A DNA stretch of 39,686 bases, from contig JBEULM010000016.1 in the NCBI GenBank assembly GCA_041287335.1, forward strand, positions 1 through 39,686, in the 5' to 3' direction. The notes under the pieces were generated by a model. It did not search any database. It had not been told where the DNA came from and saw only the letters and a list, made by a program, of their open reading frames with translations. The stretch comes from Hydrogenobacter sp. GTDB lineage: Bacteria > Aquificota > Aquificia > Aquificales > Aquificaceae. Positions 16,294-32,741 of this stretch are shown here, in pieces; within the stretch, counting starts at the first letter, position 1; every line of letters starts with the position of its first letter. A program made the position numbers and the translations under genes.

Positions 16294-16315
16294 TTCGCCG
16301 ATAAATTCAGTGATC

Positions 16316-16720
16316 ATGCGAGTAGAAGACATAGAACTGTTTTTAAAAGCAGTAGCTGGTGAAAGTGTAAGCCTTATGTTCAAAAGGTTTGCCGAGCAAT
16401 CAAAAGGTACGGAGACAGAGCGGATCGCACATGCTTTAGAAACTTTTGAAAAAATTTTCGGATTAGGCACTTTGGTTCCCATTTTGAAACTCGCAGGTAA
16501 AAAGGTAATTATTAATCATACTATTGAAAAATACGAAGATAAGGTCAAAGTAAACTGTCCTTTTAAGGAATTATTAATAACTAAAAAACCCTTGGAACAT
16601 CCCCTTTGTTATCTATGTTGGGGTGGTCTTTATACATACGGAGACGCTTACTTTGAGAGAAAAGAGGAAAACAAGTGTATCTTTAAACTGCACTCAAAAA
16701 AGAAGCGTTTAACTTTATAA
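16316..16720 (+). CDS. Hypothetical protein downstream of the Pho-box-like dyad
   Basis: A 134-residue soluble protein I do not recognise. The N-terminal half is helical (VEDIELFLKAVAGESVSLMFKRFAEQ), followed by strands (KKVIINHTIEKYEDKVKVNCPF). A Cys cluster comes next (CPF at about 82, then HPLCYLCWGGLYTYGDAYF), and a basic tail. The Cys/His pattern could bind metal and loosely resembles small-molecule-binding V4R-type domains, but this is a guess. The ATG at 16316 is preferred over a GTG two codons upstream; both lack a Shine-Dalgarno, and a -10-like TAAATT lies only eight bases away. It stands alone, divergent from the roadblock operon, and ahead of the strong xoxF promoter. Confidence 0.65.
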   Translation: MRVEDIELFLKAVAGESVSLMFKRFAEQSKGTETERIAHALETFEKIFGLGTLVPILKLAGKKVIINHTIEKYEDKVKVNCPFKELLITKKPLEHPLCYLCWGGLYTYGDAYFERKEENKCIFKLHSKKKRLTL

Positions 16721-16777
16721 GCATGTTCTTATAAGTTTATTTTAGTAATTTTGTTATATTCTTAAAACAAAAAATGC

Positions 16778-16806
16778 TTGACAAAGTTCCTATTTTCGTT
16801 TATAAA
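16778..16806 (+). promoter_or_regulatory. Strong sigma-70 promoter of xoxF
   Basis: TTGACA (16778-16783), a 17-base spacer, then TATAAA (16801-16806): one mismatch from the ideal. Initiation would fall near 16813, leaving a short leader with AGGAGGT at 16831-16837 seven bases before the xoxF ATG. Confidence 0.85.
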
Positions 16807-16843
16807 TATACATGTTTTTAAAATCTTTGTAGGAGGTGCTTCC

Positions 16844-18718
16844 ATGAAGCGGAGGGTGTATCACAGGTTACTCTTTCTGTTTATGCTTTTTGCAACCTTA
16901 TGGGTTGGTCTGTCTTTTGCTAACCCTGAGGTTGAACAGCTCTCACACAAGGCCAGCCTCTGGCCAGCGCCGGGGAGAGACTATCATTTAACCAGGTACT
17001 CTCCTCTTAGTCAGATCAATACCCGTAACGTGAAGAACCTGGACTTAGCATGGAGTTTTTCCACGGGTGTGCTTAGGGGGCATGAAGGTCAACCTCTCGT
17101 GATAGGAAACGTTATGTATGTGGAAACCGCTTATCCCAACATAGTTTACGCCTTAGATATAAGCAAGGGGAACGATTACAGGATACTCTGGAAATACGTC
17201 CCTCAGCAAGATGACAGGGCGGTTGCGGTTGCTTGCTGTGATACAGTTATGAGGGGTATATCTTATGCGGACGGCAAGATAGTTATGAATACCCTTGATG
17301 GCCATGTTATAGCTCTTGATGCAAAGACGGGTAAAGAGCTTTGGAAAGTAAAGCACGCGGACCCCTACAAGGGTGAAACCATCACTGCGGCTCCCATAGT
17401 TGCAAAGGATAAAGTGATAGTGGGTATATCCGGTGGTGAGTTTGGCGTGCGTGGAAGAGTTGCCGCTTATGATCTCAACTCAGGAAAGCGTGTCTGGATG
17501 TGCTACAATCAAGGTCCAGATCAGGACATGTGCTATGGTCCAAGGACTCCCGCCAAGTATAAGGGTCTTGGTGTGAACACGTGGCAGGGTGATCAGTGGA
17601 AGATAGGAGGAGCCACCGTTTGGGGATGGTTTGCCTATGACCCTAAGCTTAACTTAGTATATTACGGGACGAGCAATCCCGGCACCTGGAATCCTTACAT
17701 AAGGTGCAGCGCAAGCACGTGGGAAGAGTGCCAAAGCGGAAGATATGATAACAAATGGTCCACATCCATAATTGCTCGTGATGCAGATACGGGTGAGTTA
17801 GTATGGGCATTTCAAATGACACCTTACGATGAATGGGACTATGACGGTGTAAACGAGATGATACTGCTTGATGTCAATGTGGGAGGTAAGAAGGTACCTG
17901 CTTTGATACACTTTGATAGAGATGGTTTTGCCTTCTTACTTAACAGGGCTACTGGAGAACTCATATACGCAAAGCCCTTCGTTTACGTAAACTGGGCGAA
18001 AAGCTGGGATGAAAGGCATGCAAGGGATGGACATACCTTCAATGTCGTAAAAGATCCGGCTAAATCGCCCTGGAAACCCGGTGATAACAAGAAAGATGTT
18101 TGTCCATCAGCTATGGGTGGAAAGGACCAGCAACCAGCAGCTTACAGTCCGGACACTGGACTTGTCTATGTACCTACCAATCAATGGTGTATGGATTATG
18201 AACCTGCTGAAACCAAGTATACGGAAGGCGCTCCTTATGTCGGTGCTAACGTGCTGATGAAGTTCTATGAGCATAAATCACCCATACACGGACTTTCCAA
18301 GACACCTGGGCATTACGGCAGGATCATTGCATGGGATCCGGCTAAAGGTGAGATAAAGTGCTACATAGATGAGAAGTATCCTACATGGAGCGGTGTACTT
18401 GTCACAAAGGGTGGTGTAGGATTTTACGGGACTATGGATGGCTGGTTTAGAGCCTTTGATCTAAAAACATGCAAAGTTCTTTGGTCTAAAAAGCTCGGTT
18501 CAGGCATTATAGGTAACCCCATATCCTTTGAGGTGAATGGTAAGCAGTATGTTGCTGTGTACTCAGGTATAGGTGGATGGGCAGGTCTTCCCGTAACCGC
18601 AAACCTTGATCCCAATGACCCTTACGGCGCTTTGGGTTCCACCAACCTCTCACTTGAGCTTGATCTATACAGACAGGCTACTATGAGTGGTGTCCTCTAC
18701 GTGTTCTCTCTTGAGTAA
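16844..18718 (+). CDS. xoxF: Lanthanide-type PQQ-dependent methanol/alcohol dehydrogenase
   Basis: A 624-residue periplasmic quinoprotein. The signal peptide runs to about residue 26 (LSFA|NPEV). The eight-bladed propeller carries the vicinal disulfide C131-C132 typical of quinoprotein alcohol dehydrogenases. The metal site is E199 (GGEFGVRG), N278 (GTSNPGTWN), catalytic D332 and D334 in DEWDYDGVNE. The second Asp two residues after the catalytic Asp marks XoxF-type enzymes that use rare-earth metals; calcium enzymes (MxaF) have Ala there. These enzymes oxidise methanol or other alcohols and pass electrons to a cytochrome c. No heme domain is fused. The ATG at 16844 is fixed by AGGAGGT and the leader. 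It heads a cluster with a PQQ-associated propeller, XoxJ and a PQQ-receptor-like protein. Substrate is not certain. Confidence 0.93.
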   Translation: MKRRVYHRLLFLFMLFATLWVGLSFANPEVEQLSHKASLWPAPGRDYHLTRYSPLSQINTRNVKNLDLAWSFSTGVLRGHEGQPLVIGNVMYVETAYPNIVYALDISKGNDYRILWKYVPQQDDRAVAVACCDTVMRGISYADGKIVMNTLDGHVIALDAKTGKELWKVKHADPYKGETITAAPIVAKDKVIVGISGGEFGVRGRVAAYDLNSGKRVWMCYNQGPDQDMCYGPRTPAKYKGLGVNTWQGDQWKIGGATVWGWFAYDPKLNLVYYGTSNPGTWNPYIRCSASTWEECQSGRYDNKWSTSIIARDADTGELVWAFQMTPYDEWDYDGVNEMILLDVNVGGKKVPALIHFDRDGFAFLLNRATGELIYAKPFVYVNWAKSWDERHARDGHTFNVVKDPAKSPWKPGDNKKDVCPSAMGGKDQQPAAYSPDTGLVYVPTNQWCMDYEPAETKYTEGAPYVGANVLMKFYEHKSPIHGLSKTPGHYGRIIAWDPAKGEIKCYIDEKYPTWSGVLVTKGGVGFYGTMDGWFRAFDLKTCKVLWSKKLGSGIIGNPISFEVNGKQYVAVYSGIGGWAGLPVTANLDPNDPYGALGSTNLSLELDLYRQATMSGVLYVFSLE

Positions 18719-18733
18719 GATTGAAATCCTGTT

Positions 18734-18758
18734 GGGGCAGTTTTGTCTGCCCCTTTTT
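18734..18758 (+). terminator. Rho-independent terminator after xoxF
   Basis: GGGGCAG (18734-18740), loop TTTTGT, CTGCCCC (18747-18753), then T5AT5. A 7-bp GC-rich stem with a U tail. It suggests xoxF is made in excess over the downstream genes, as is usual for this abundant enzyme. Confidence 0.92.
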
Positions 18759-18805
18759 ATTTTTGATAACTTTTTTTGTAAATATAACAATTTTGGAGGA
18801 TGGAT

Positions 18806-19789
18806 ATGCGTTACCTTTTTATTCTCTTTGTAAGTGCATTTACTTGCGTTGAAGCTTTTGCATCTTATGTCTTTGTGAGTGATGAAGAAGAGGGAATTTA
18901 CGTGATAGATGCGGATAAACTTGAACTTGTAAAACGCGTTGAGTTAAAGGATTTAGGAATAAGAGGTATAGGGGTTACCAAGGATGGTAAGTATCTGGCT
19001 GTAGCTTCAAAAAAACTCGGAAAGCTCTTAGTAGTGTCCACAGAAAATTGGAAAATAGTCAAAGAGATACCCCTGGGTGAAAATCCCGAATTCGTAAAAG
19101 TGCATCCCAAAAGGGATTTACTCTTTGTAACGTACGAAGAGACAGGAAAGGAAGAAAGAGCGTACATAGTTGCTATAGATACCAAAAACTGGAAGGTATC
19201 TTTTAAGTTTGAGGGAGGGAAAGAGAGCGAGGGTATGGCTTTTTCAAAAGATGGAAAGTACTTGCTTGTTACCAACGAAGGTGAAAACAGCTTGTCAGTC
19301 TACGATCTTGATACTAAGAAAAAGCTTAAAGATGTAAACCTAAAGCCCTACGGTGAGAGACCGCGCGGTGTTGTGTGTTCACCGGATGGGAATTATTACG
19401 CGGTCACCTTTGAAAGTTCAAATAATATGATCTTGCTTGATAATAACTTTAAACCCCTCAGGTCCGTAAAAACTGATGCCGGTCCCTACGGCGTAACATA
19501 TAGTCCAGATGGTTCTGAAATTATAGTAGCATCCTTTAGAGCTGGAAAGCTTGATATCTATGATGCGAGAACTTTGAGTAAAAAGGCGTTCCTTCAAACA
19601 GGCAAAAGATGCTGGCATTTTACTTACACCTCTGATTATAAGAAGCTTGTAGTTCCATGTGGAAACTCAAAGAACGTTCTCTTTTTTGATACTAAGGACC
19701 TTCGTCTTATAAAGAGCATGGATAATCTAGGCAAACCATGGGGTGCAGTGGCTTTTCCCAGAGCGTGGGGAAGCATAGATACACCTTGA
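18806..19789 (+). CDS. PQQ-associated YVTN/YncE-type beta-propeller protein
   Basis: A 327-residue exported protein. The signal peptide is about residues 1-20 (RYLFILFVSAFTCVEAFA). The rest is a seven-bladed propeller of about 45-residue repeats with the SPDG/SKDGK and YVTN-like pattern (GVTKDGKYLAVAS, AFSKDGKYLLVTN, VCSPDGNYYAVTF, TYSPDGSEIIVAS). It resembles the propeller proteins found beside PQQ-dependent dehydrogenases (TIGR03866 type), whose biochemical role is unknown. It has no CxxCH, so it is not the electron acceptor. The ATG at 18806 is chosen because GGAGG at 18795-18799 is then correctly spaced; an ATG two codons upstream overlaps that site. Confidence 0.8.
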   Translation: MRYLFILFVSAFTCVEAFASYVFVSDEEEGIYVIDADKLELVKRVELKDLGIRGIGVTKDGKYLAVASKKLGKLLVVSTENWKIVKEIPLGENPEFVKVHPKRDLLFVTYEETGKEERAYIVAIDTKNWKVSFKFEGGKESEGMAFSKDGKYLLVTNEGENSLSVYDLDTKKKLKDVNLKPYGERPRGVVCSPDGNYYAVTFESSNNMILLDNNFKPLRSVKTDAGPYGVTYSPDGSEIIVASFRAGKLDIYDARTLSKKAFLQTGKRCWHFTYTSDYKKLVVPCGNSKNVLFFDTKDLRLIKSMDNLGKPWGAVAFPRAWGSIDTP

Positions 19790-19813
19790 CTCAAAGTTTT
19801 AACACGCTATATT
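19786..19813 (+). promoter_or_regulatory. Candidate promoter of xoxJ
   Basis: TTGACT (19786-19791), 16 bases, TATATT (19808-19813). Initiation would fall near 19820, leaving almost no leader before the ATG at 19824. No Shine-Dalgarno is present there, consistent with a leaderless transcript. Confidence 0.55.
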
Positions 19814-19823
19814 ATTAAACATT

Positions 19824-20654
19824 ATGAGAGAAAAAATTGGGTTGCCATGGAGAGTGGTAGGTAAGTTTATGGTTCTACCTTTTTTCTTTATACCGCTTAC
19901 TTCTCTATCCGCACCTAAAGGATTGACCGCATGCAGTGATCCGGGACTTACTCCCCTCTTTGATATGCAGGGAAAGGGCATATACAACAAAATAGAGGAA
20001 CTAATAGCGAGCTATCACGGACAAAAGGTAGAGCGCTACTTTTTCCCGATGCAGATGGGGTTTGTGAGGCATACGCTTGTGGAAAAAGCCTGCCATTTTG
20101 TGGTAGGTGTACCTGCTGGTTATGAACTTACTTTAAATACCAAACCTCTATTTAGATCCACATACGTTCTCGTTTACAGGAGCGATAGCGGTTTTGATAT
20201 AAAGGGTATTGATGATCCCATACTTAGCAAACTAAAAATAGGGGGCATAGTTAATAATCCTGCCTTCTTTTACCTCAAGGATAGAGGCATTACCAACTAT
20301 GTGGGCTACAACAGTTTTTATGACTCTTTTAATAGACCTGAGGACAATCCAAACCTGCAGATAATAAAGGATCTTCTTGACAAAAAGATAGATGTAGCGG
20401 TACTTTGGGGTCCTATAGCTGGATATTTTGTCAAAGAGTATAACGGTAAACTCAAGATGGTGCTACCCAATCCTGAAGGTCAGAGTAGTGTGAGGCTTGA
20501 TTATAAGGTAGCCATAGGTGTAAGAAAAGGGGACACACACATGAAAGAGTATGTGGAGGAAGCTATTGTGGGAGAAAAGGAAGCTATAAAGAGCCTTCTC
20601 GTTAGCAATGGCATACCCATATTACCGTGCGATAATTGTGTGATAAATCCTTGA
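19824..20654 (+). CDS. xoxJ: XoxJ/MxaJ-type periplasmic solute-binding-like protein
   Basis: A 276-residue protein with a long N-terminal leader (hydrophobic VLPFFFIPLTSLSA, residues about 17-30) followed by TACSDPGLTPLFDMQGKG. The body has the periplasmic binding protein pattern of the quinoprotein-dehydrogenase-associated family: FFPMQMGFVRHTLVEKACHFVVGVPAGYE, RSTYVLVYRSD, DVAVLWGPIAGYFVKEY, and ILPCDNC near the end. MxaJ and XoxJ help produce active methanol dehydrogenase; XoxJ is thought to bind and activate the apoenzyme, not to transport a solute. No ABC permease is nearby, which agrees. It lies between the propeller gene and the TonB receptor, 22 bases before the latter. Confidence 0.85.
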   Translation: MREKIGLPWRVVGKFMVLPFFFIPLTSLSAPKGLTACSDPGLTPLFDMQGKGIYNKIEELIASYHGQKVERYFFPMQMGFVRHTLVEKACHFVVGVPAGYELTLNTKPLFRSTYVLVYRSDSGFDIKGIDDPILSKLKIGGIVNNPAFFYLKDRGITNYVGYNSFYDSFNRPEDNPNLQIIKDLLDKKIDVAVLWGPIAGYFVKEYNGKLKMVLPNPEGQSSVRLDYKVAIGVRKGDTHMKEYVEEAIVGEKEAIKSLLVSNGIPILPCDNCVINP

Positions 20655-20676
20655 TAACGCATAAAGGGGGTGTGCT

Positions 20677-22713
20677 GTGAAGGGAAAGGGTTTTTCTGGT
20701 ATATTTTTTCTGATCGTTTTCACTGGAATTTCCCTCGCACAGGATGCACAAGCTCCACCCATCGTCATAACCGCTACAAGAGAAAGAAAATCTTTATTTG
20801 AGTTATCTACCTCGGCAGGTACTGTGGAAAAGGAAAATATCCAGACAGCCCTTCCTAACCTTCAGCCTGCTGACGTTTTGTCTCGCATTCCCGGTGTTTA
20901 TGCACAAGACAGAGGCAGAAATTTTGCTCAAGATGCTAAGATAATCATAAGAGGCTTTGGAGCGAGGACACAATTCGGTGTAAGGGAAATAAAGCTCTTT
21001 TGGGATGGTGTTCCACTCACCATGGCGGATGGTCAAGGTGATATAGATAAGCTTGATATGAGTTTTATAAAGCACGTTGAGGTTTTAAAAGGTCCACTTG
21101 CGGTTCTTTATGGTAATTCCGCAGGTGGCATAATTTATTTTGAGAGCGAGGATGGAGGACTGAAACCCCTCTCGACAGGACTCAAGATATCGGGCGGAAG
21201 TTACGGCTTCCATAAAGAAAACCTTAAGGTAGGTGGACAGATAGAAAAGTTCAATTATATGCTTGGTCTTACATCTCTTTATACAACCGGTTTTCGTGAT
21301 CACAGCTCAGCGAGGAGAAATTACGCAAATTTGAAAACCACTATAGGGATCACGGATAGATCATCTCTAACCTTATTTATTCACCTCTTTGATGAACCAT
21401 TTGCCAAGGATCCGGGTGCTCTCACCAAAACCGAGTTTGAAAAAGACTCAAAGCAAGCGGCTCCTATGTATAAGGCAAACGATGCGAGAGAAAACATACA
21501 AAACAGAGAAATAGGGTTCCTTTACCAGCATGAACTTTCGCCAAATCAGTCTTTTAAGATAACAGGGTATTTCGGACACAGGGACTTTACTGGATACACA
21601 CCCGTAATAGTGAACGATTTCGGAAGAGATTATTACGGTGTAGGTCTTAATTGGTTTAGTAAGTTTAGGATTGGGGAAAGAAGTTTAGAGACTACCTTAG
21701 GTTTAGATACAGACTTTATGAAAGAAGATAGAAGCAACTTCCAAAATGTAAATGGAAGTAAGGGGACGCTCCAGTACACCCAAAACAGCAATGTGAAAAA
21801 CGTAGGACTTTATACGCTTATGAGTTTTGACATTACAAAAAGTTTGCAACTGAGTGGAGGTGCAAGATACTCAAAAGTGGATTTTAGCGCTGATTATAAC
21901 AGATTTTCTCCCTCCTTACTGTTGGTGTCAGGCGATAGAAGTTTTCAATTCACAAGTTGGGCGTTAACGATGAGTTACAAACCACTTAAGATGGTAAATC
22001 TTTATGCGGGTGTGGGCAGGGGCTTTATAACACCAACCCTCATAGAGCTTATAAACTCGCCTTCCGGTCCTGGTGGTTTAAATCAGAACTTAAAAGCTTC
22101 TAAGTTCTACAACTACGAGGCTGGTATAAAGACGCTTCTTGCAAGCGGAACTTATTTAGACACATCCATCTTTCTGGTGAGAACTTCAGACGAACTTGTG
22201 CCAAAGCAACTATTTCCGGGTACGAACTACTATGTGAATGCTGGAAAGACAGAAAGGAGGGGAATTGAATTTTATCTGACACATGAGCTTCCCTTTAATC
22301 TTTATACCATGTTGGCGTACACTTACATGGAAGCCACCTTTAAGGACTTTATAGACACGGATGGCATAAACAAATCAGGTAAGAAGATTCCTGGCATACC
22401 CAGACATACCCTCTTTTGTGAGTTTGGGTGGAAACCCACAAAGAAATTCTTAGCTTCTGTTGATGTAAAGTATGCGGACAAGGTTTGGGCGGACAACAGT
22501 AATACCGCAAGTGCGGAAAGCTACACTATAGTAAACCTGAAAAGTTTGTATAGGTTTGATATTTTTGGTTACAGTTTGGATGCTTTCTTTAGAATTGAGA
22601 ACCTTTTTGATAAAAAGTATGTGACATCCGTTGTACCGAATGCAACAGGCGGAAGATATTACGAACCAGGACCAGGCAGAAATTACTATGTGGGTATGGC
22701 GTTGAATTTTTAG
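20677..22713 (+). CDS. TonB-dependent outer-membrane receptor, PqqU (YncD)-like
   Basis: A 678-residue receptor starting at GTG 20677, after AAAGGGGGTG. The signal peptide ends near ISLAQDAQA; a TonB-box-like IVITATRE follows at about residue 30. The plug (about 40-150) has IIIRGFGARTQFGVRE, DGVPLTMADGQGDIDKLD and VLKGPLAVLYGNSAGG. The 22-strand barrel ends GGRYYEPGPGRNYYVGMALNF. Several stretches closely match E. coli PqqU (formerly YncD), the high-affinity PQQ receptor: RGFGxR..xGVR, DGxPxTMxDGQG, RDHSxARxNxAN and GRYYEPxPGRNY. With its place beside xoxF and xoxJ, PQQ is the likely ligand. A rare-earth chelate is the alternative. TonB/ExbBD are not in the window. Confidence 0.85.
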   Translation: MKGKGFSGIFFLIVFTGISLAQDAQAPPIVITATRERKSLFELSTSAGTVEKENIQTALPNLQPADVLSRIPGVYAQDRGRNFAQDAKIIIRGFGARTQFGVREIKLFWDGVPLTMADGQGDIDKLDMSFIKHVEVLKGPLAVLYGNSAGGIIYFESEDGGLKPLSTGLKISGGSYGFHKENLKVGGQIEKFNYMLGLTSLYTTGFRDHSSARRNYANLKTTIGITDRSSLTLFIHLFDEPFAKDPGALTKTEFEKDSKQAAPMYKANDARENIQNREIGFLYQHELSPNQSFKITGYFGHRDFTGYTPVIVNDFGRDYYGVGLNWFSKFRIGERSLETTLGLDTDFMKEDRSNFQNVNGSKGTLQYTQNSNVKNVGLYTLMSFDITKSLQLSGGARYSKVDFSADYNRFSPSLLLVSGDRSFQFTSWALTMSYKPLKMVNLYAGVGRGFITPTLIELINSPSGPGGLNQNLKASKFYNYEAGIKTLLASGTYLDTSIFLVRTSDELVPKQLFPGTNYYVNAGKTERRGIEFYLTHELPFNLYTMLAYTYMEATFKDFIDTDGINKSGKKIPGIPRHTLFCEFGWKPTKKFLASVDVKYADKVWADNSNTASAESYTIVNLKSLYRFDIFGYSLDAFFRIENLFDKKYVTSVVPNATGGRYYEPGPGRNYYVGMALNF

Positions 22714-22714
22714 A

Positions 22715-22737
22715 TTTTCCTTTGGAAAAACCCTTTA
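22715..22737 (+). terminator. Weak terminator after the PqqU-like receptor
   Basis: TTTTCC (22715-22720), loop TTT, GGAAAA (22724-22729), followed by the T-rich ACCCTTTATTTTC. The short, AT-rich stem makes this a weak candidate. Confidence 0.35.
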
Positions 22738-22833
22738 TTTTCTCTTATTTATAAGAATATAGTTATGTTTTTATCGTCTTTCTTAATTTACTTTCAGGTA
22801 TCAAACACTCTAACTTTGGAAAAAAAATTCTAC

Positions 22834-22862
22834 TTGACAGAAGTATATATGGGAAATATAAT
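22834..22862 (+). promoter_or_regulatory. Perfect-consensus sigma-70 promoter of the cox-type operon
   Basis: TTGACA (22834-22839), exactly 17 bases, TATAAT (22857-22862). Both boxes match the consensus at every position. A leader of about 45 bases follows, with AAGGAGGTG ahead of the ATG at 22913. Confidence 0.9.
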
Positions 22863-22912
22863 TTTTCAAAGTAAGTTTGTTACGTTTATCTCTCAGAAGG
22901 AGGTGTGCAATC

Positions 22913-23389
22913 ATGAAAGAGAGGGTAAGCCTCACTATCAACAAAATCCCTTACACCTTGGAGGTGGAACCCAGAACACTGCTCGTGTATGCCATAAGGG
23001 AACTGCTCAATATGACTGGAACGCACGTAGGGTGTGATACGAGCAGTTGTGGTGCATGCACCGTTCTTATGAACGGTAAGGCAGTCAAATCGTGTACCGT
23101 GTTAGCCCTTCAGGCTGATGGTGCAGAGATAATAACGGTTGAAGGACTTGCTTCAGATTCGGAGCTTCATCCCGTGCAAGAAGGCTTCAAAGAAGAACAC
23201 GGTCTTCAGTGCGGTTTTTGTACTCCGGGTATGATGATAGTGTCCTGCGACATACTTGAGACCGAAGAAGAACTTGACGAAGACAAGGTAAGAAAGCTCC
23301 TAAAGGGTAATCTCTGCAGATGTACGGGATACCAAAATATCGTAAAAGCGATAATGTATGCTAAAGAAAAAACAGCAGTAGCAAAGTAA
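22913..23389 (+). CDS. CoxS-like [2Fe-2S] small subunit of a molybdenum hydroxylase
   Basis: A 158-residue iron-sulfur subunit. The N-terminal plant-type ferredoxin cluster is C41, C46, C49 and C61 (GCDTSSCGACTVLMNG). The C-terminal cluster is C100, C103, C135 and C137 (CGFCTPGM, LCRCTGYQNI). All eight ligands expected of the xanthine oxidase family are present. It carries electrons from the molybdenum site to FAD. The ATG at 22913 is fixed by AAGGAGGTG. It is the first gene of the S-L-M order; CO dehydrogenases are usually M-S-L, so the order itself argues for a different member of the family. It lies 13 bases before the large subunit. Confidence 0.93.
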   Translation: MKERVSLTINKIPYTLEVEPRTLLVYAIRELLNMTGTHVGCDTSSCGACTVLMNGKAVKSCTVLALQADGAEIITVEGLASDSELHPVQEGFKEEHGLQCGFCTPGMMIVSCDILETEEELDEDKVRKLLKGNLCRCTGYQNIVKAIMYAKEKTAVAK

Positions 23390-23402
23390 AGGAGGTGTTG
23401 TC

Positions 23403-25748
23403 ATGGTTATAGGAAAACCTTTGAGAAGGTTTGAGGATGACAGGCTTATAAGGGGTTTGGGGCAGTATGTGGAGGATATAAAGCTACCGCGGATGGCTTA
23501 TGCGGTATTTGTGAGATCTCAGGTTGCTCACGGTAGGATAAAGAGTATAAACACGCAAGAGGCAAAGAAGGTTGAAGGCGTAATAGCTGTGATTACTGGA
23601 CAGGACATAAAGGATAAGGTAGGTAAAAACTTCACCGCATGGATAGTGCCTAACAGTAATCAAGTCAGTGCGGATGTATCTTCGAGGTATCTGCTCGCGG
23701 TTGATAAAGTTAGGTATGTAGGTGAGCCTGTAGCTCTGGTGATAGCAGAAAGCAGAGAAAAAGCCTTTGATGCTGCTGAGCTTGTAGAGGTTGAATATGA
23801 AGAGCTTCCGGCGGTAGCGAGTGTTGAAAAAGCTATACAAGAAGGTGCTCCTTTGGTTCATGAAGAGGCACCGGGTAATATAGCCCTAAGGTGGCATGTA
23901 AAGAACGGAGATGTAGATAAGGTCTTTTCCGAGGCTGACAGGATAATAAAGCAAAGGATATACGTAAACAGAGCTGCACCTGTACCTATGGAACCGAGAG
24001 CTTGCATAGCCGATTACAATTCTGCCACAGGTAAGCTAACCTTATGGGTTACCTCTCAGAACCCTCACATACACAGATTTTACCTCTCTGTAGTTTTAGG
24101 TCTACCCGAGCATAAAATCAGGGTCATAGCACCTGATGTAGGTGGTGGGTTTGGAGCAAAGATAGACATATACAATGAGGAACTTATAGTCTCTTACGCT
24201 TCCATTTTGCTCAAAAGACCTATAAAGTGGGTAGAGACGAGAAGTGAGCATTTTGTAGCGTCATTGCACGGGAGGGATTTTCTTGCGGAACTTGAATTCG
24301 CTGTAAAGAATGATGGAAGAGTACTCGGAATAAGGGGTAAAAGTTACGCTAATATGGGGGCTTATCTGGCAACTGTAGCTCCTGGTGTCGCCACAGTACT
24401 TCACGGTCTAATACTTCCCGGTCCTTATAAGATAGAGGCTTTTGATTATGTGATGCACGGAGTTTTTACAAACACTATGCTCCTTGATGCGGACAGAGGA
24501 GCGGGAAGACCTGAAGCTATATTTTTACTTGAAAGGATGATGGACATTGTGGCGGACGAGCTTGGTATGGATCCCCTTGAGCTAAGAAAGAAAAACTACC
24601 TTCCAGCGGGTGAGAATGTCCAAACTGTAACTGGGCTTTCTTATGACTCTATAGACTTCGGTAAGGTACTCAAAAAATTTGAGGAAGTTGTGGACTACAA
24701 GGCTTTGAGAGATATGCAGAAAAAAGCGAGGGAAGAGGGAAGATATATAGGCATAGGTATAGTTTCAAGTATAGACATATGCGGTTTTGCACCCTCACCT
24801 GTTGTTGGAGCTGTAGGCTTGCAAGCGGGACAATGGGAAAGTGCGGTGGTGCGTGTTCATCCTACGGGTAAGGTAACAGTCCTTTCAGGTGCGCACTCTC
24901 ATGGTCAGGGAGGCGATACTACCTACGCTCAAATAGTTGCGGATGTGCTTGGTGTGCCTGTCGATTCCATAGAGGTGCTTCACGGGGATACTGACATGAT
25001 ACCTATGGGTTGGGGAACATATGGAAGCAGAGGTACATCCACCGGTGGTTCTGCCGTTTACAAAGCTGCGGAGAAAGTAAGGGAAAAGGGAAGGGTCATA
25101 GCGGCGCATATGCTCGGTACTAAGCCTGAAGAAATTGAGTTTAGCGAAGGTATTTATTACCTCAAGTCCGATCCATCCAAAAAGGTAACCATTCAAGACG
25201 TTGCCCTTCAAGCAAATGTAGCGTGGAACCTACCTCCGGGTGTTGAGCCAGGGCTTGAGGCGGAAGCCTTCTTTGATCCACCCAACTTTACCTTCCCCTT
25301 TGGCATACACTGTTGTGTAGTAGAGGTAATGCCCGATACTGGCGAGGTAAAATTCTTAAAGTATGTAGCCGTTGACGATGCAGGTAGAATAATAAATCCG
25401 CTACTTGCTGAAGCTCAGATACAGGGGGGAATAGTGCATGGCATAGGTCACGCCATGTATGAAAATATAGTCTATACTGAAGATGGACAGCTACTTACCG
25501 GTTCTTTTAACGAGTATGCCCTGCCTAAGGCTCACTTAGTACCCAAGATGGAAACTTACTTCACGGAAACACCAAGTCCTGCCAACCCCTTAGGTGTCAA
25601 AGGACTTGGTGAAGAGGGAGCCATTGCAGGACAGATAGCTGTCGCTAATGCCATAATAGATGCCATAAAACCCTTTGGGGTAAAACATCTTGACGGTCCA
25701 TACACACCGTCAAGGATATGGAGAGCTATAAATAAGTTGGAGGTGTAA
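23403..25748 (+). CDS. Form II CoxL-like molybdopterin-binding large subunit
   Basis: A 781-residue catalytic subunit of the xanthine oxidase/CO dehydrogenase family. It opens with GKPLRRFEDDRLIRGLGQYVEDI, typical of CoxL. The active-site loop reads ADRGAGR (363-369), the form II signature (AYRGAGR), not the AYxCSFR of true aerobic CO dehydrogenase. The cofactor-binding GGGFGAKID, the HGQGGDTTYAQ segment and the C-terminal catalytic Glu in GLGEEGA are present. Form II enzymes oxidise varied aldehydes, purines or aromatic compounds, and few oxidise CO. The substrate cannot be read from sequence. Its closeness to xoxF makes an aldehyde attractive (inference). An XdhC-type protein and a MocA-like enzyme nearby supply a sulfurated cytosine-dinucleotide cofactor. 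Confidence 0.9.
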   Translation: MVIGKPLRRFEDDRLIRGLGQYVEDIKLPRMAYAVFVRSQVAHGRIKSINTQEAKKVEGVIAVITGQDIKDKVGKNFTAWIVPNSNQVSADVSSRYLLAVDKVRYVGEPVALVIAESREKAFDAAELVEVEYEELPAVASVEKAIQEGAPLVHEEAPGNIALRWHVKNGDVDKVFSEADRIIKQRIYVNRAAPVPMEPRACIADYNSATGKLTLWVTSQNPHIHRFYLSVVLGLPEHKIRVIAPDVGGGFGAKIDIYNEELIVSYASILLKRPIKWVETRSEHFVASLHGRDFLAELEFAVKNDGRVLGIRGKSYANMGAYLATVAPGVATVLHGLILPGPYKIEAFDYVMHGVFTNTMLLDADRGAGRPEAIFLLERMMDIVADELGMDPLELRKKNYLPAGENVQTVTGLSYDSIDFGKVLKKFEEVVDYKALRDMQKKAREEGRYIGIGIVSSIDICGFAPSPVVGAVGLQAGQWESAVVRVHPTGKVTVLSGAHSHGQGGDTTYAQIVADVLGVPVDSIEVLHGDTDMIPMGWGTYGSRGTSTGGSAVYKAAEKVREKGRVIAAHMLGTKPEEIEFSEGIYYLKSDPSKKVTIQDVALQANVAWNLPPGVEPGLEAEAFFDPPNFTFPFGIHCCVVEVMPDTGEVKFLKYVAVDDAGRIINPLLAEAQIQGGIVHGIGHAMYENIVYTEDGQLLTGSFNEYALPKAHLVPKMETYFTETPSPANPLGVKGLGEEGAIAGQIAVANAIIDAIKPFGVKHLDGPYTPSRIWRAINKLEV

Positions 25749-25751
25749 GCC

Positions 25752-26609
25752 ATGATACCTGCACCCTTTGAATACTATAGGGCTAAAACGGTAGAGGAAG
25801 CTTTAGAGCTCATAAAGAAGTTTGGGGATGAAGCCAAGGTTTTGGCTGGTGGGCAAAGCCTTATCCCTATGCTCAAGCTAAGATTTGCCAGATACTCAAA
25901 GATAATAGATATAGGCAGGCTACAAGAACTAAAGTATATAAGGCAGGACGGTGATATAGTGCGTATAGGAGGTCTCACTACCCACAGGGAAGTCGAAAAA
26001 TCCCAGCTCGTAAAGGATAAAGTTCCTGTTCTCTCTCTATGTGCGAGTGAGATAGCCGATGTACAAGTAAGAAATATGGGAACTATCGCAGGTTCTCTCT
26101 CTCACGCAGATCCCAGTGCGGATTATCCACCTACAATGCTTGCCTTGGGTGCCACCTTAGTAGCAAAAGGTGCTAAAGGAAGCAGGGAAATTCCTGTAGA
26201 CAACTTTTTTGTAGGTACTTTTACCACAGCCCTTGAACCGGATGAGCTTCTGGTGGAGGTCAAAGTACCTGTAATGAAGAATAACGAAAGGGCATACTAT
26301 ATGAAGATAGGACACCCTGCAACGGGGTTTGCTATAGTTAATTGTGCGGTAAAGCTATCCTTAAACAATGGGAGGATAGATAGTGCGAGGGTAGCTCTTG
26401 GAGGTTTCGTCACTGTACCTTACAGAGACTCAAAGGTAGAAGAATTTCTCACCGGTAAAGAGGCAAATTTGGATACCATAAAGAAGGCTTCAGAGCTTGT
26501 AGGTGAGGGTCAGGACATAATAGGAGATTATTACGCAGATGCAGATTACAGGAGAAGTCTTGCCAAAGCTCTCTTTGTAAGGGTTGTAAGAACAGCCTTG
26601 GGGGTTTAA
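25752..26609 (+). CDS. CoxM-like FAD-binding medium subunit
   Basis: A 285-residue flavoprotein subunit. It starts PAPFEYYRAKTVEEALELI and has the FAD pyrophosphate motif AGGQSLIPMLKLRFA near residue 33. A second motif, NMGTIAGSLSHADPSADYPP, sits near 110. The C-terminal domain covers the remaining 120 residues. It passes electrons from the iron-sulfur subunit to the final acceptor (quinone or another carrier). The start is three bases after the large-subunit stop, so translation is coupled. Length is normal for CoxM (about 285). Confidence 0.93.
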   Translation: MIPAPFEYYRAKTVEEALELIKKFGDEAKVLAGGQSLIPMLKLRFARYSKIIDIGRLQELKYIRQDGDIVRIGGLTTHREVEKSQLVKDKVPVLSLCASEIADVQVRNMGTIAGSLSHADPSADYPPTMLALGATLVAKGAKGSREIPVDNFFVGTFTTALEPDELLVEVKVPVMKNNERAYYMKIGHPATGFAIVNCAVKLSLNNGRIDSARVALGGFVTVPYRDSKVEEFLTGKEANLDTIKKASELVGEGQDIIGDYYADADYRRSLAKALFVRVVRTALGV

Positions 26610-26610
26610 A

Positions 26611-27576
26611 GTGCAGACCTGGAAGGAAGCTAAACTTTTAGCGGAAGGTATACTGGACTGTAAAAAGAGGGGTGTCCGATGCGCCCTTCTTACCATAGTC
26701 AGTGTAAGAGGCTCTTCATACAGGAAAGAAGGAGCAAAGTTCTTAGTTACAGAAGAAGGTGAAGAAATATGTAGTATATCAGGAGGATGCCTTGAAAGGG
26801 GTCTTTTGGATACTGCCCTTGAAGTAATAATGAGAAACTCTCCGATGCTTGAGCGGATTAACATGGAAGAGGAAAGCTCTTGGGGGATGTGGCTAGGCTG
26901 TCCAGGTGAAGTGGATATATACATAGAGCCTCTTCACTTTGACCAAGTCCTAAGTGCTTGGGTTGATGCAGTGGTGAAAGGGGAGAAGTTTGTTTTAGCC
27001 AAAAGGCTCTTCTCGGAAGATAAGCTTTTAGTTACGGAAAAAGAAACGGTGGGAAACTTGACGCAGGCTAAGGAAGAAGCTCTCAGCCTACTGCACACCT
27101 ACGGTATAAGACCTTACCTTAATGGGGACATCTTTTTTGATACCCTTCTCCGTTATCCACCTATTCATATTTTTGGAAGCGGGGAAGAAGCACATCACAT
27201 GCGCGAGCTTGCAAACATCTTGGGGTTTGAAGTTTATCTGCACGAACCTTCCGAGAGAGTAAAGATAGAAGAAGGGAGCTTTGTGCTGGTGGCAAATCAT
27301 AACATAAAGGCGGACAGAGTTTCTTTGAAACAAGCTTTGATGTCTAAAGCTTCCTACATAGGTGTTGTCAGCTCAAGAAAGAGGTTCTTGAAACTTTCGG
27401 AGGATCTTCAAGTGGATGACAGAATATACTGTCCCGCTGGATTAGATCTTGGAAGCTTTACGCCAGAAGAAGTAGCTTTCAGCATAATGGCAGAAATACT
27501 GAAGATCTATTGGGGAAAGACGGGGGAGAGTTTGAAAAAAGTGAAGCAGGAGGTTACGTATGGAACTGGTAGTTAG
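26611..27576 (+). CDS. XdhC/CoxI-type molybdenum cofactor maturation protein
   Basis: A 321-residue protein starting at GTG 26611, one base after the CoxM stop. The N-terminal XdhC_CoxI region has LLTIVSVRGSSYRKEGAKFLV and SISGGCLERGL (the SGGCxE motif). The C-terminal half is a Rossmann-like domain with HIFGSGEEAHHMRELANILGFEV and the ending GSFTPEEVAFSIMAEIL. XdhC binds molybdopterin and guards or delivers the sulfurated cofactor to molybdenum hydroxylases. Expected to act on the large subunit of this operon. It overlaps the coxG-like gene by 17 bases. Confidence 0.88.
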   Translation: MQTWKEAKLLAEGILDCKKRGVRCALLTIVSVRGSSYRKEGAKFLVTEEGEEICSISGGCLERGLLDTALEVIMRNSPMLERINMEEESSWGMWLGCPGEVDIYIEPLHFDQVLSAWVDAVVKGEKFVLAKRLFSEDKLLVTEKETVGNLTQAKEEALSLLHTYGIRPYLNGDIFFDTLLRYPPIHIFGSGEEAHHMRELANILGFEVYLHEPSERVKIEEGSFVLVANHNIKADRVSLKQALMSKASYIGVVSSRKRFLKLSEDLQVDDRIYCPAGLDLGSFTPEEVAFSIMAEILKIYWGKTGESLKKVKQEVTYGTGS

Positions 27577-28141
27577 GGAATCCTTTGAAACTAAAGCTGA
27601 CTTCAAAAAAGCGTGGGAATTTTTCTCAAACCCAGAATTTATAGTACCTTGCATACCCGGAGCGGAGATAAAAGAGATAAAGGAGGATGGTTCTTTTGAA
27701 GCGAGCGTGAAGCTCAAGCTCGGGGCGGTTTCCCTTAATTTCTTAGGGAGTATGAAGTACGAAAAACTTGATGAAACAAATGGTCTTATGGTACTTTCGG
27801 GGGAAGGAAAAGAGAAAGGGGGAGCTGGAAGGGCAAAGGCGAACATAGAAGCAAGCCTCAAAAGAGAAGGTGATGCTCTAAAAGTATATGTTGTGGCAAC
27901 CGTTGACATATCCGGGAAGATCCTTCAGTACGGTAGGGGTATGTTTGAACAGGTGGCAAAGCAGTACTTTGCTCAGTTTTCTCAGTGTGCCAAAAACTAT
28001 TTGGAAGCTAAGCAGGAAAGTGAAGAAGAAAAAAAAATGCCACCTAAGCCTGTAGAACTAAATGCCTTGAGCCTTTTCTTAAAGGCTCTTTTGGCATGGC
28101 TTTTAACTCCTTTTAAGAGGATCTTCGGAAGTAAGGCGTAG
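27560..28141 (+). CDS. CoxG-like SRPBCC-fold protein
   Basis: A 193-residue protein. Residues 1-145 match the CoxG/SRPBCC fold (FETKADFKKAWEFFSNPEFIVPCIPGAE, then GAVSLNFLGSMKYEKLDE and GRGMFEQVAKQYFAQFSQC). A charged linker (QESEEEKKMPPKP) leads to a hydrophobic C-terminal helix, LFLKALLAWLLTPFKRIF. CoxG is reported to help attach CO dehydrogenase-type enzymes to the membrane or carry menaquinone between enzyme and respiratory chain; the C-terminal helix here fits a membrane role. It overlaps the preceding gene by 17 bases and the convergent mocA-like gene by 39. Confidence 0.88.
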   Translation: MELVVRESFETKADFKKAWEFFSNPEFIVPCIPGAEIKEIKEDGSFEASVKLKLGAVSLNFLGSMKYEKLDETNGLMVLSGEGKEKGGAGRAKANIEASLKREGDALKVYVVATVDISGKILQYGRGMFEQVAKQYFAQFSQCAKNYLEAKQESEEEKKMPPKPVELNALSLFLKALLAWLLTPFKRIFGSKA

Positions 28142-28714
28142 GTAATCCCATACGTTGTCAAAGTCTTCAAGGAGGTGATCAAATCCCTTTATTACCTCCT
28201 TCCTCTTCGCCTCCTTTATTATTTTCTTTGCACCTGTATCCCCCTTCAATTCTGCCAGCGCTTTATAGTATCTTCTACTGAAAAGCGAAGGTGGACAAGG
28301 CTCTCCATTTTTTTCAAAGGAAACAATATCGTAACCTTCATTAAAATGCTTTATAAGCACTCTCAGCATATAGTCATTTACAAAGGGCTGGTCTGAAAGA
28401 ATTAATACAATAGCCTCCAACTTTAACTCTGTAGCCTTCTCTGATACGAGCCTTATGGAGGAAGCCATACCTTCAGAATATTTCGGATTGTATATGAGTC
28501 TTCCATTTTCCACTTTTGAAGCGATCTCTTTGTGATAAGCCCCGGTTATTATGTAGGTATGCTCAGGCTCTACAATTAAACACTTTTCAAGCAATCTCTT
28601 AAGCAATGGCATACCTTCATAGGGGAAGAGAAACTTGGGGGCGCCGAATCTTTCACACCTTCCAGCTGCAAGGATAAAAAAACCTACCGTTTTATTTTTC
28701 CTAATCTCATTCAT
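28103..28714 (-). CDS. mocA: MocA/MobA-like molybdenum cofactor nucleotidyltransferase
   Basis: A 203-residue nucleotidyltransferase with the glycine-rich FILAAGRCERFGAPKFLFPYEG motif broken here as LAAGRCERFGAPKFL near residue 15, a metal-binding LSDQPFV near 105 and GDTGAKKII near 155. MocA adds CMP to molybdopterin to make the cytosine dinucleotide used by the xanthine oxidase family; MobA adds GMP. The DQP motif and the neighbouring cox-type operon favour MocA. It is on the opposite strand, 39 bases overlapping the end of coxG. Six bases upstream lies the lipoprotein gene, so the pair may share a transcript. Confidence 0.82.
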   Translation of the reverse strand: MNEIRKNKTVGFFILAAGRCERFGAPKFLFPYEGMPLLKRLLEKCLIVEPEHTYIITGAYHKEIASKVENGRLIYNPKYSEGMASSIRLVSEKATELKLEAIVLILSDQPFVNDYMLRVLIKHFNEGYDIVSFEKNGEPCPPSLFSRRYYKALAELKGDTGAKKIIKEAKRKEVIKGFDHLLEDFDNVWDYLRLTSEDPLKRS

Positions 28715-30367: not shown

Positions 30368-31384
30368 ATGGTAGAACTTCTAAAATTGGTAAGGGCTTCT
30401 GGTTGAGCAGCTAAGGTGGGTCCGGCGGACCTGGAAAACATCGTAAAGGGTTTGGAACTTTACAGTGATGAACGCACCTTACTGGGTATAGGCGACGATG
30501 CTGGTGTTTATCTCTACGGTGGGAGTGTGTTTATCCATACCGTGGACTTTATCACTCCAATAGTAAATGATCCCTACCTGTGGGGAGCTATATCGGCAAC
30601 AAACTCTTTGAGTGATGTTTACGCAATGGGTGGTATACCATTAAATGCTCTTGCGGTTGTGGGTTTTAATAGCTGTGATATGGATATAGAAGTTTTGAGG
30701 GAAGTTATGAGAGGATGTACTGATAAACTCAGAGAGGCAAAAACGGTTCTTTTGGGGGGACACACCATAGATGACAGAGAACCCAAGTTTGGACTTGCAG
30801 TAATGGGCGTGTGCGAAGATGGTAAATATCTGACCCAAAATGGAGCAAGAGTAGGTGACCTTATCGCACTTACAAAACCCATAGGTGTAGGCATTCTCAC
30901 CAAAGCTATAAAAGAAGGAAAAATAAAGGAGGTAGATATTCAAGAAGCTATAGATTATATGCTTGCCCTCAACGATAGATCAGCCATACTGGCAAAAAGG
31001 CTTGAATCATCTTCATGTACTGATGTGACTGGTTTTGGTCTCTTAGGACACGCTTGGAACATAGCCAAAAAATCAGGAGTCAGGTTTTCTATAGACTTTT
31101 CCCGAGTACCTATATATGATGAATCTGTCTTCTTCATAAAACAGAAGCTTTATCCTAAGGGTGCTTTGGACAACTACAATTTCGTTAGAGAGCATACTAT
31201 CAACGAAGGACTTGAGTGGTGGCAACTCTTGATCTTGTCAGATCCAAACACGTCGGGAGGACTTCTCTTTACTTTTCCGAAAGATAGGCTACCCATTATG
31301 AATGAGGAACTTACAAAGCTACATATAAAGGCTTGGATAATAGGAGAGGTGGAGGAAGGGGAAGGTTTAAGACTGTATAGGTGA
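30368..31384 (+). CDS. selD: Selenide, water dikinase (selenophosphate synthetase) with selenocysteine
   Basis: A 338-residue SelD. The reading frame runs from ATG 30368 through an in-frame TGA at 30404-30406 (codon 13) into the long frame. The N-terminus reads [16 protein letters not shown], matching the SelD active site ASGCAAKxGPADL with selenocysteine in the Cys position. The rest has GIGDDAGVY (ATP and metal), [35 protein letters not shown]. It makes selenophosphate from selenide and ATP for selenocysteine and selenouridine. Starting at GTG 30416 would lose the catalytic residue. The family's essential Lys follows at codon 16. Its stop is one base from the convergent tnpB stop. SelA, SelB and SelC are not in the window. 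Confidence 0.93.
30417..30433 (+). promoter_or_regulatory. Candidate bacterial SECIS hairpin in selD
   Basis: Just after the UGA (30404-30406) is GGTCC (30419-30423), loop GGC, GGACC (30427-30431), extended by two G-U pairs to 30417 and 30433. The apical loop starts 18 bases past the UGA and begins with G, as expected for a SelB-recognised bacterial SECIS. Confidence 0.7.
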
Positions 31385-31385
31385 A

Positions 31386-32741
31386 CTACTCCATGCTATA
31401 GAGCATGGAGCTTCCTGAGGAGCTTGTCTCCTCAGAGGGTGGCTCACATGCGCCCCCTACTGCGTATGTCCCATTAGAGACACTCCGCCATACTTTTATC
31501 CTGACTGGCACTGGTATATGAGAGAATTCTGGCTCAAAGCCCGCCTTCCTCATAATGTTGATGGCACCATTGACATCCGCATTAATTACCTTGCCCGTGC
31601 CTGAAAGATACAGCCCTCTTGATATCCTCCTGCCTGAAAAGACATGGTTTCCTCTCTCATGGTGTTTTGGTATGTAGTCTCTGCACAGGCTATCCGCCTG
31701 TGAGGTGTATGCCTCATCTACTTCCATATAAGTTATGCCATGCTTTTCGCACTTGTGCCTGATAAGGTCTCTGAGATATCCAAGAGGCAAAAACTTCATG
31801 TTTTGGTTGTTAACTCTTCCAAGCTCTGGCTTGTCATAAACAGATGAGCAGTCTCCTACCACCACAAGGTCTATGCCTTCCTTCAGGCAAAAGTCCAGTA
31901 TTATCTTGGCTGTCTTGTGCATATAGTCTCTTATCTGGTTCTGTCTTTTCTCAGACAGAACCGCCAGCCTTTTACTGGACTTTATGCCTTGTTTATCATA
32001 TATGCTTTTTAGTCTTGCAAGCTCCTTGTTATACCACTGATTGACCGCCTTTATATCTCTGCCATCTACAATAAATGCCTTACCATCTGAACTCACACAG
32101 GTAGCAAGATTATCTATGCCTAAATCAATAGCCAAAACCTTTTTAGGTTTTACTCTTTTTTCTTCCTTTTCTCTTACCCTATACACATAATGCACCTCAA
32201 ACCATTTTCCTTTAGCCTTTGGCACTATCTTGACTTCCTTAAGGTCAAGCCCTAAAACCAGCTTCGGAACTCTAATTTTTACCTCTCCAAAAAGCTCCTT
32301 TCCTTGCTTGCTTACTGGTATTGTCAGATATCCATCTTTGATAGAAAACATGATAATATGCAGTGGATATAATCCATCTTTTGGCAAATATTTTGGTATA
32401 GATGGTCCTGGAAGGTTTTTCTCTTTTGCCTGCTTTAAAAGTGAAAAGAAAGTCTCAAAGTTTGCATGTGCTTTTTTGATTACCTGCTGTGCCATGTTGG
32501 AGTTAAGCCTTCTGTAGTTTTCCGAGTGTTTGAGAAGATGGTAGTTTTCCTCATATCTCAGGTATGAACCTGTCTGGAAAAAGTGCTGTCTTATGTTATA
32601 GAGCGTCTGGTTATACAGGCTTTTGGCTATCCTGCACATAGAGTAAAGAGCCTCATACTCTTTCCTGCTCAGATGGTTTAGCCTCTGCCTTATCACTCCA
32701 AACACAGTGCCTTGAATGTTGCCTTTTCCTTTTCCAGCCAT
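31386..32741 (-). CDS. tnpB: IS200/IS605-family RNA-guided nuclease/accessory protein TnpB
   Basis: A 451-residue OrfB/TnpB protein. The RuvC-like nuclease has its first Asp in AIDLGIDNLAT near residue 205 and its last Asp in NADVNGAINIMRK near 400. The middle position reads LVVVGD, without the usual catalytic Glu (VIE); the candidate replacement is the Glu in VDEAYTSQ. The zinc-finger region before the last motif (TSQADSLCRDYIPKHHERG) has lost most Cys. This fits the TnpB subgroup with a rearranged active site, related to eukaryotic Fanzor. TnpB normally cuts DNA guided by an RNA made from the element's 3' end. The reading frame is intact. The last codons lie in the terminal hairpin. Activity is uncertain. 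Confidence 0.85.
   Translation of the reverse strand: MAGKGKGNIQGTVFGVIRQRLNHLSRKEYEALYSMCRIAKSLYNQTLYNIRQHFFQTGSYLRYEENYHLLKHSENYRRLNSNMAQQVIKKAHANFETFFSLLKQAKEKNLPGPSIPKYLPKDGLYPLHIIMFSIKDGYLTIPVSKQGKELFGEVKIRVPKLVLGLDLKEVKIVPKAKGKWFEVHYVYRVREKEEKRVKPKKVLAIDLGIDNLATCVSSDGKAFIVDGRDIKAVNQWYNKELARLKSIYDKQGIKSSKRLAVLSEKRQNQIRDYMHKTAKIILDFCLKEGIDLVVVGDCSSVYDKPELGRVNNQNMKFLPLGYLRDLIRHKCEKHGITYMEVDEAYTSQADSLCRDYIPKHHERGNHVFSGRRISRGLYLSGTGKVINADVNGAINIMRKAGFEPEFSHIPVPVRIKVWRSVSNGTYAVGGACEPPSEETSSSGSSMLYSME
31389..31410. repeat. Terminal hairpin at the 3' end of the TnpB element
   Basis: CTCCATGCT, loop ATAG, AGCATGGAG: a perfect 9-bp stem that overlaps the last codons of tnpB. Beside it, the sequence TAGTTCAC (minus strand) runs to the selD stop. 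In this family such hairpins mark the right end and form part of the omega RNA. Confidence 0.75.
31415..31435. repeat. Second hairpin near the 3' end of the TnpB element
   Basis: CTGAGGAG, loop CTTGT, CTCCTCAG: a perfect 8-bp stem inside the tnpB C-terminal coding sequence. Together with the terminal hairpin it could form the scaffold of an omega RNA. Confidence 0.65.

Follow-up and report, generated by a model that had tools for sequence, protein, structure and literature searches.

A predicted lanthanide-type XoxF locus in two Hydrogenobacter species: the probable core of a periplasmic alcohol oxidation system

What would a chemolithoautotroph of the Aquificota do with a lanthanide-type methanol dehydrogenase? 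The question is raised by contig JBEULM010000016.1 (our contig C16) of Hydrogenobacter sp. (assembly GCA_041287335.1, 1.67 Mb, 99.98% complete), a stretch of 39,686 nucleotides that was analysed as a whole and is called the window here. At positions 16844-22713, four intact genes follow each other on the plus strand, coding for a pyrroloquinoline quinone (PQQ)-type dehydrogenase, XoxF, for a propeller protein, for XoxJ and for a TonB-dependent receptor. The same block is found in synteny in a second species, with protein identities of 80-96%, and the arrangement is therefore not a matter of chance. The second genome (G028, one contig of 1,743,135 bp) is very probably that of H. thermophilus TK-6. 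Our work suggests that the locus is probably the core of a periplasmic lanthanide-type system for the oxidation of methanol (or short alcohols) in these two Hydrogenobacter species. The four genes are the following:

16844..18718, plus strand: xoxF, lanthanide-type PQQ methanol/alcohol dehydrogenase of the XoxF1/XoxF2 group, 624 amino acids (profile, structures, residues, trees)
18800..19789, plus strand: secreted YncE/YVTN-type beta-propeller (TIGR03866, 135.6 bits), similar to propellers in the xox loci of several relatives
19824..20654, plus strand: xoxJ, periplasmic binding-protein-like partner of XoxF (TIGR03871 and 6ONP matches)
20677..22713, plus strand: pqqU, predicted TonB-dependent PQQ receptor with Glu at the position of E. 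coli K274 (6V81 match, signature residues)

Profile, structures and residues confirm the dehydrogenase as a predicted lanthanide-type XoxF: It scores 656 bits against TIGR03075 (cut-off 480), among solved structures it is closest to the lanthanide enzymes 7O6Z and 4MAE, and it has the residues that mark a lanthanide-dependent methanol dehydrogenase, i. e. the ligands Glu172, Asn256 and Asp299, the lanthanide-specific Asp301 and the Cys103-Cys104 disulfide pair, with Arg326 also present. The MxaF control 4TQO carries Ala at position 301. The ATG at 16844 is the likely start, since the TTG of a longer frame of 646 amino acids coincides with a -35 box. In both the FastTree and the IQ-TREE phylogenies the protein, the verrucomicrobial enzymes and those of hot-spring Acidobacteria are united in the XoxF1/XoxF2 group (bootstrap 100), which is separate from XoxF5. 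Both trees pair it with 7O6Z (XoxF1) on long branches; without 7O6Z, it becomes sister to 4MAE (XoxF2), again with a bootstrap of 100. The assignment to XoxF1 that the first tree implied was not accepted, given these long branches and the Gly that replaces the diagnostic Asp at position 172 of the XoxF1 criterion (PMC8546591). The residues at positions 172/240/259 (G/T/S) are common to the Hydrogenobacter enzyme and XoxF2, Cys240 of XoxF1 is absent as well, and Ser259 is also found in 4MAE and the hot-spring Acidobacteria. The predicted enzyme is best placed in the XoxF1/XoxF2 group as a whole. With XoxF2 (4MAE) and XoxF1 (7O6Z) of verrucomicrobial methanotrophs it has the ligands and the tree group in common, at identities of 60.5% and 58.8%, respectively, whereas the host here is an Aquificota chemolithoautotroph. 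The locus also contains the same kinds of genes as the XoxF3-type loci of Acidobacteria and Gemmatimonadetes, in which XoxG, XoxJ, a YncE propeller and a TonB receptor are encoded near xoxF (PMC10875860). Unlike those loci, it has no adjoining cox/ctaG genes, the xoxG of the studied genome lies elsewhere, the receptor bears the PqqU signature, and the XoxF of this locus belongs to the XoxF1/XoxF2 group.

The initial annotation, made from the letters of the window, had described a lanthanide-type XoxF, a XoxJ-type protein and a PqqU-like receptor in a row on one strand, and this is borne out by the XoxF ligands, by the match of XoxJ to its best solved relative, XoxJ 6ONP (E 5e-32), and by the residues F99, R304 and R365 of the receptor. 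The position of xoxJ in the xoxF cluster agrees with this identity, although the score against TIGR03871 is marginally under the cut-off (209.4 versus 212.2 bits); in most of the non-proteobacterial relatives examined, xoxJ stands immediately after xoxF. The propeller had been called PQQ-associated: A YncE-like propeller is indeed there, but it stays under the TIGR03866 cut-off of 287.3 bits, and an association with PQQ is only suggested. The cluster is, moreover, less complete than it had seemed, as the window contains no cytochrome gene and hence no xoxG. A search of the whole genome for cytochromes c gave a best match on contig C56 (L164:1194-1649), beside fdsG-fdsB-fdsA-fdhD. This protein is homologous to cytochromes encoded immediately after xoxJ in the xoxF regions of Rokubacteria, Nitrospirae, Gemmatimonadetes and Binatia (L009, L010, L015, L011 and others; at most 43% identity, E 2e-20), and is therefore of the XoxG type; it is not MxaG, since it scores 43.6 against the MoxG model (cut-off 147.8). 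The neighbouring operon encodes a formate dehydrogenase of the NAD type, the alpha subunit of which scores 959 bits (cut-off 666). In the sister genome, this cytochrome (91% identity) is encoded, together with the secreted protein next to it, beside mobA on the border of the xox island, and the fds operon is elsewhere. Thus, the cytochrome pair stands beside the formate module in one species and beside the methanol module in the other, which supports the idea of a single pathway. The secreted neighbour, a protein of about 195 amino acids (L164:605-1192; L178:14605-15174), accompanies the cytochrome in both species; it gave no family match and no usable structure, and it is a candidate for a new XoxG partner. 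Next to this pair, the sister genome has genes that by eye resemble those for 6-phosphogluconolactonase, glucose-6-phosphate dehydrogenase and 6-phosphogluconate dehydrogenase (L178:10840-13712).

Directly downstream of the four-gene block, a co-oriented operon (22913-28141), to which the initial annotation had not referred, encodes a molybdenum (Mo) hydroxylase, followed by a convergent mobA:

22913..23389, plus strand: small [2Fe-2S] subunit (NF041020 234.6 bits, cut-off 290; Fer2, Fer2_2), the ATG at 22913 being inferred from the ribosome site
23403..25748, plus strand: large subunit of the aldehyde-oxidoreductase type with an RGAGR motif (NF041018)
25752..26609, plus strand: flavin adenine dinucleotide (FAD) subunit (NF041019 318.1 bits, cut-off 350; PF00941, PF03450)
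26611..27576, plus strand: maturation factor of the XdhC/CoxI family (PF13478, PF02625)
27560..28141, plus strand: accessory protein of the CoxG family (PF06240)
28103..28714, minus strand: MobA-like nucleotidyltransferase, likely for the Mo cofactor (PF12804, 98.5 bits; 67% identical in the sister genome), at the end of the shared island

The solved relatives of the large subunit are carbon monoxide (CO) dehydrogenase and aza-aromatic hydroxylases, and its scores are 748.9 for the glyceraldehyde dehydrogenase alpha subunit (cut-off 790) and 691 for CO dehydrogenase (cut-off 991). Aldehyde oxidation seems more likely than CO oxidation because RGAGR is the form II motif rather than the form I motif of CoxL.

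How widespread is this combination? Profile searches among 136 Aquificota genomes detected xoxF in two, the studied genome and its sister, and pqqE in the same two only; the Mo hydroxylase was found in six and the formate dehydrogenase in three, both xoxF carriers being included each time. Genes for XoxF, PQQ synthesis and formate dehydrogenase occur together in the two species and are absent from the three sequenced congeners compared. The comparison of the cluster that the initial annotation had proposed for Aquificales genomes thus found it, among the 136 Aquificota, kept in one further genome, with xoxF not detected in the other 134, and the xox system is therefore not a phylum-wide trait. 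Since no other Aquificota among these genomes carries xoxF, horizontal acquisition of the gene is likely. It was suggested earlier that Hydrogenobacter and verrucomicrobial methanotrophs have exchanged other genes (PMC11102522).

Taken together, the encoded proteins would form the following chain: XoxF, together with XoxJ, would oxidise methanol in the periplasm and pass the electrons via the XoxG-type cytochrome to the respiratory chain. The neighbouring Mo enzyme, or else XoxF, may convert the resulting formaldehyde to formate, FdsGBA would oxidise the formate to CO2 with formation of reduced nicotinamide adenine dinucleotide (NADH), and the CO2 could then be fixed via the reductive tricarboxylic acid (TCA) cycle known in the genus. 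PQQ would be synthesised in the cell, and PqqU would most likely recapture PQQ lost from the periplasm and take up external PQQ as a supplement. For TK-6, fixation of CO2 by the reductive TCA cycle has been demonstrated biochemically, and the formate step has outside support from a later report of growth of this strain on formate (PMC3111988). Several points weigh against this reading. XoxF enzymes accept ethanol and aldehydes as well. The Mo hydroxylase stays under every substrate-specific cut-off, its link to alcohol oxidation derives from its position, and it is also present in four Aquificota genomes in which xoxF was not detected. Moreover, the two xoxF carriers are congeners, and the co-occurrence of the genes may count as one gain. 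Finally, according to PMC3111988, the description of TK-6 from 1984 recorded that the strain did not use methanol, ethanol or, at that time, formate; this account of the negative methanol test does not mention lanthanides.

It is tempting to go one step further and to speculate that Hydrogenobacter is capable of lanthanide-dependent methylotrophy, with complete oxidation of methanol to CO2 at 65-75 °C and assimilation via the reductive TCA cycle. This would be a counterpart of the XoxF-dependent methylotrophy of Bradyrhizobium and Sinorhizobium that relies on the Calvin-Benson-Bassham cycle (PMC12628762, PMC12997859), but we regard it as tentative and somewhat doubtful. The logic would be common to both, i. 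e. XoxF, full oxidation to CO2, a formate dehydrogenase and autotrophic CO2 fixation, whereas the rhizobia use the glutathione route for formaldehyde and the Calvin cycle, and Hydrogenobacter would use the Mo hydroxylase, a role we infer, and the reductive TCA cycle. Only a little less probable, though still unlikely in our view, is a more modest role for XoxF as an auxiliary or detoxifying oxidase for traces of alcohols or aldehydes in a cell that lives on hydrogen or sulfur and does not grow on methanol alone. The negative growth tests of TK-6 on methanol and ethanol (PMC3111988) and the patchy distribution among the Aquificota would fit such a role, and the micromolar affinity of XoxF1/F2 enzymes (PMC8546591) is suited to a trace substrate. 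However, detoxification would hardly require a full encoded chain to CO2 with a xoxG-type gene that in one of the species is linked to formate dehydrogenase, and no addition of lanthanides is reported for the older tests. The expectation that the locus widens the metabolism of the Aquificales holds at the gene level, i. e. for XoxF, XoxJ, the XoxG-type cytochrome, the aldehyde-oxidoreductase-type enzyme and formate dehydrogenase, but it is limited to two genomes and faces the growth tests just mentioned. In the open-licence literature, we found no report on XoxF or lanthanides for Aquificota or Hydrogenobacter beyond the PqqU of PMC12124388; while the individual parts are known, their combination and the host appear to be undescribed there. 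Should the chain work, an organism presented in textbooks as an obligate chemolithoautotroph would have a lanthanide-dependent energy source that has escaped notice, and methanol would be added to hydrogen, sulfur and formate as a fuel for hot-spring autotrophs that use the reductive TCA cycle. The negative result on record for methanol can be re-examined in a culture-collection strain with lanthanides added, and structural work would benefit from a thermostable XoxF/XoxG pair.

By a wide margin, the best solved relatives of the receptor are the structures of the full-length homologue PqqU of E. coli, 6V81 and 9C4O (E 2e-110), and its F99, R304 and R365, common to both proteins, correspond to the published PqqU signature of an aromatic residue at position 99, Arg304 and Arg365 (PMC12124388). 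This signature is discriminating, since R304 and R365 are missing from the remaining TonB receptors in the comparison, among them those of related Aquificota. From the signature, PQQ uptake by the receptor is plausible; the genome also codes for TonB C-terminal domains. Unlike E. coli PqqU, the Hydrogenobacter protein carries the substitutions K274E and R536T, and its gene lies beside xoxF in a genome that codes for PQQ synthesis as well. The exchange at position 274 raises the idea that PqqU imports a PQQ-lanthanide complex and thus also serves as the lanthanide entry route for XoxF: Munder et al. modelled this substitution as forming a metal site with PQQ (PMC12124388), and pqqU is part of the xoxF island in both species. 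Against this idea, the metal was placed in the published model with low confidence, and among 30 PqqU proteins of Gemmatimonadota Glu274 does not track with XoxF (XoxF present with E274 in 2/4 and with K274 in 8/26; Fisher p 0.58), so that the proposed correlation was rejected. Import of a PQQ-lanthanide complex is unsupported, and we consider it improbable. A generally tight linkage of pqqU and xoxF was discarded as well: in the Binatia and Gemmatimonadota genomes compared, the matches to receptor and xoxF are on separate contigs or far apart. Slightly less probable again is a receptor that merely resembles PqqU and transports another ligand such as a metallophore. TonB receptors switch their ligand easily, the residue corresponding to R536 is Thr, and the score against the PqqU equivalog NF041535 is 459 bits at a cut-off of 1200; yet the three signature residues are kept in a protein whose closest solved relative is PqqU, and PqqU of H. 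thermophilus has previously been modelled with PQQ by Munder et al. (PMC12124388).

In the preferred reading, PqqU would recapture or supplement PQQ that the cell makes itself. The genome search for pqqA-E revealed a full set on contig C4 in the order pqqA, first pqqC, pqqE, second pqqC, pqqB, a major facilitator superfamily gene and a convergent pqqD, and the order is the same in the sister genome. The scores exceed the cut-offs for PqqB (247 versus 245), both PqqC proteins (278 and 259 versus 240) and PqqE (425 versus 381), PqqD is at the threshold (45.8 versus 46), and pqqA was identified by its W..P...ExxxY peptide, with 30/30 residues identical in the sister genome. With this set, no reason is left to assume a dependence on PQQ from the community. 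A cell that cannot make PQQ and relies on its neighbours, as the initial annotation considered, would fit a PqqU-type receptor with an intact signature, but is rejected as practically untenable in view of intact synthesis genes in both species. The uptake part of that proposal is plausible from the signature, but the receptor does not imply auxotrophy, since PQQ synthesis genes are present in 23% of PqqU producers (Munder et al., PMC12124388). In both species, pqqE lies between the two pqqC paralogues (L005:9561-10262 and L005:7773-8483; counterparts in L176 of the sister genome). Within each genome, the paralogues are 97-100% identical over a block of about 120 bp, for which the identity between the species is only 77-82%; the rest of the genes shows the reverse pattern, as repeated gene conversion would lead one to expect. 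In the second copy, Ile replaces the catalytic His154 in both species.

The expression of the locus may be divided. The following signals were recognised:

16778..16806, plus strand: putative xoxF promoter TTGACA-N17-TATAAA, with the same arrangement upstream of xoxF in the sister genome
18734..18753, plus strand: intrinsic-terminator-like hairpin with T tract after xoxF, found by scanning; a hairpin with T tract follows xoxF in the sister genome, too
22834..22862, plus strand: consensus-like promoter TTGACA-N17-TATAAT before the Mo-hydroxylase operon (12/12 match), conserved in the sister genome

The conservation of promoters and terminator in both species argues for selection. Because of the conserved xoxF terminator and the separate promoters, these consensus matches point to three or more transcription units, xoxF being expressed separately from propeller-xoxJ-pqqU.

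The stretch shared with the sister genome is larger than the locus itself: All of 16310-28714 is syntenic, with protein identities of 51-96%. The flanking window genes that were compared, on both sides, had no match within the 30 kb of the sister genome searched around the shared stretch, and the segment therefore behaves as an island. Its first gene is the following:

16310..16720, plus strand: protein of 136 amino acids of no known family, upstream of xoxF, with a 51% identical homologue beside xoxF in the sister genome

This protein is conserved and contains several cysteines. Searches of Pfam and NCBIfam gave no match, and a single-sequence structure model was too poor for use (predicted local distance difference test score 54.7); a regulator or a metal-binding protein is possible. 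About 2.7 kb past the end of the island, the window contains an IS605 OrfB/TnpB-type gene (31386-32741). The preceding selD (30368-31384) appears to be a selenoprotein gene itself: The open reading frame listed from 30416 is truncated, because an in-frame TGA (30404-30406) sits within an ASGU motif.

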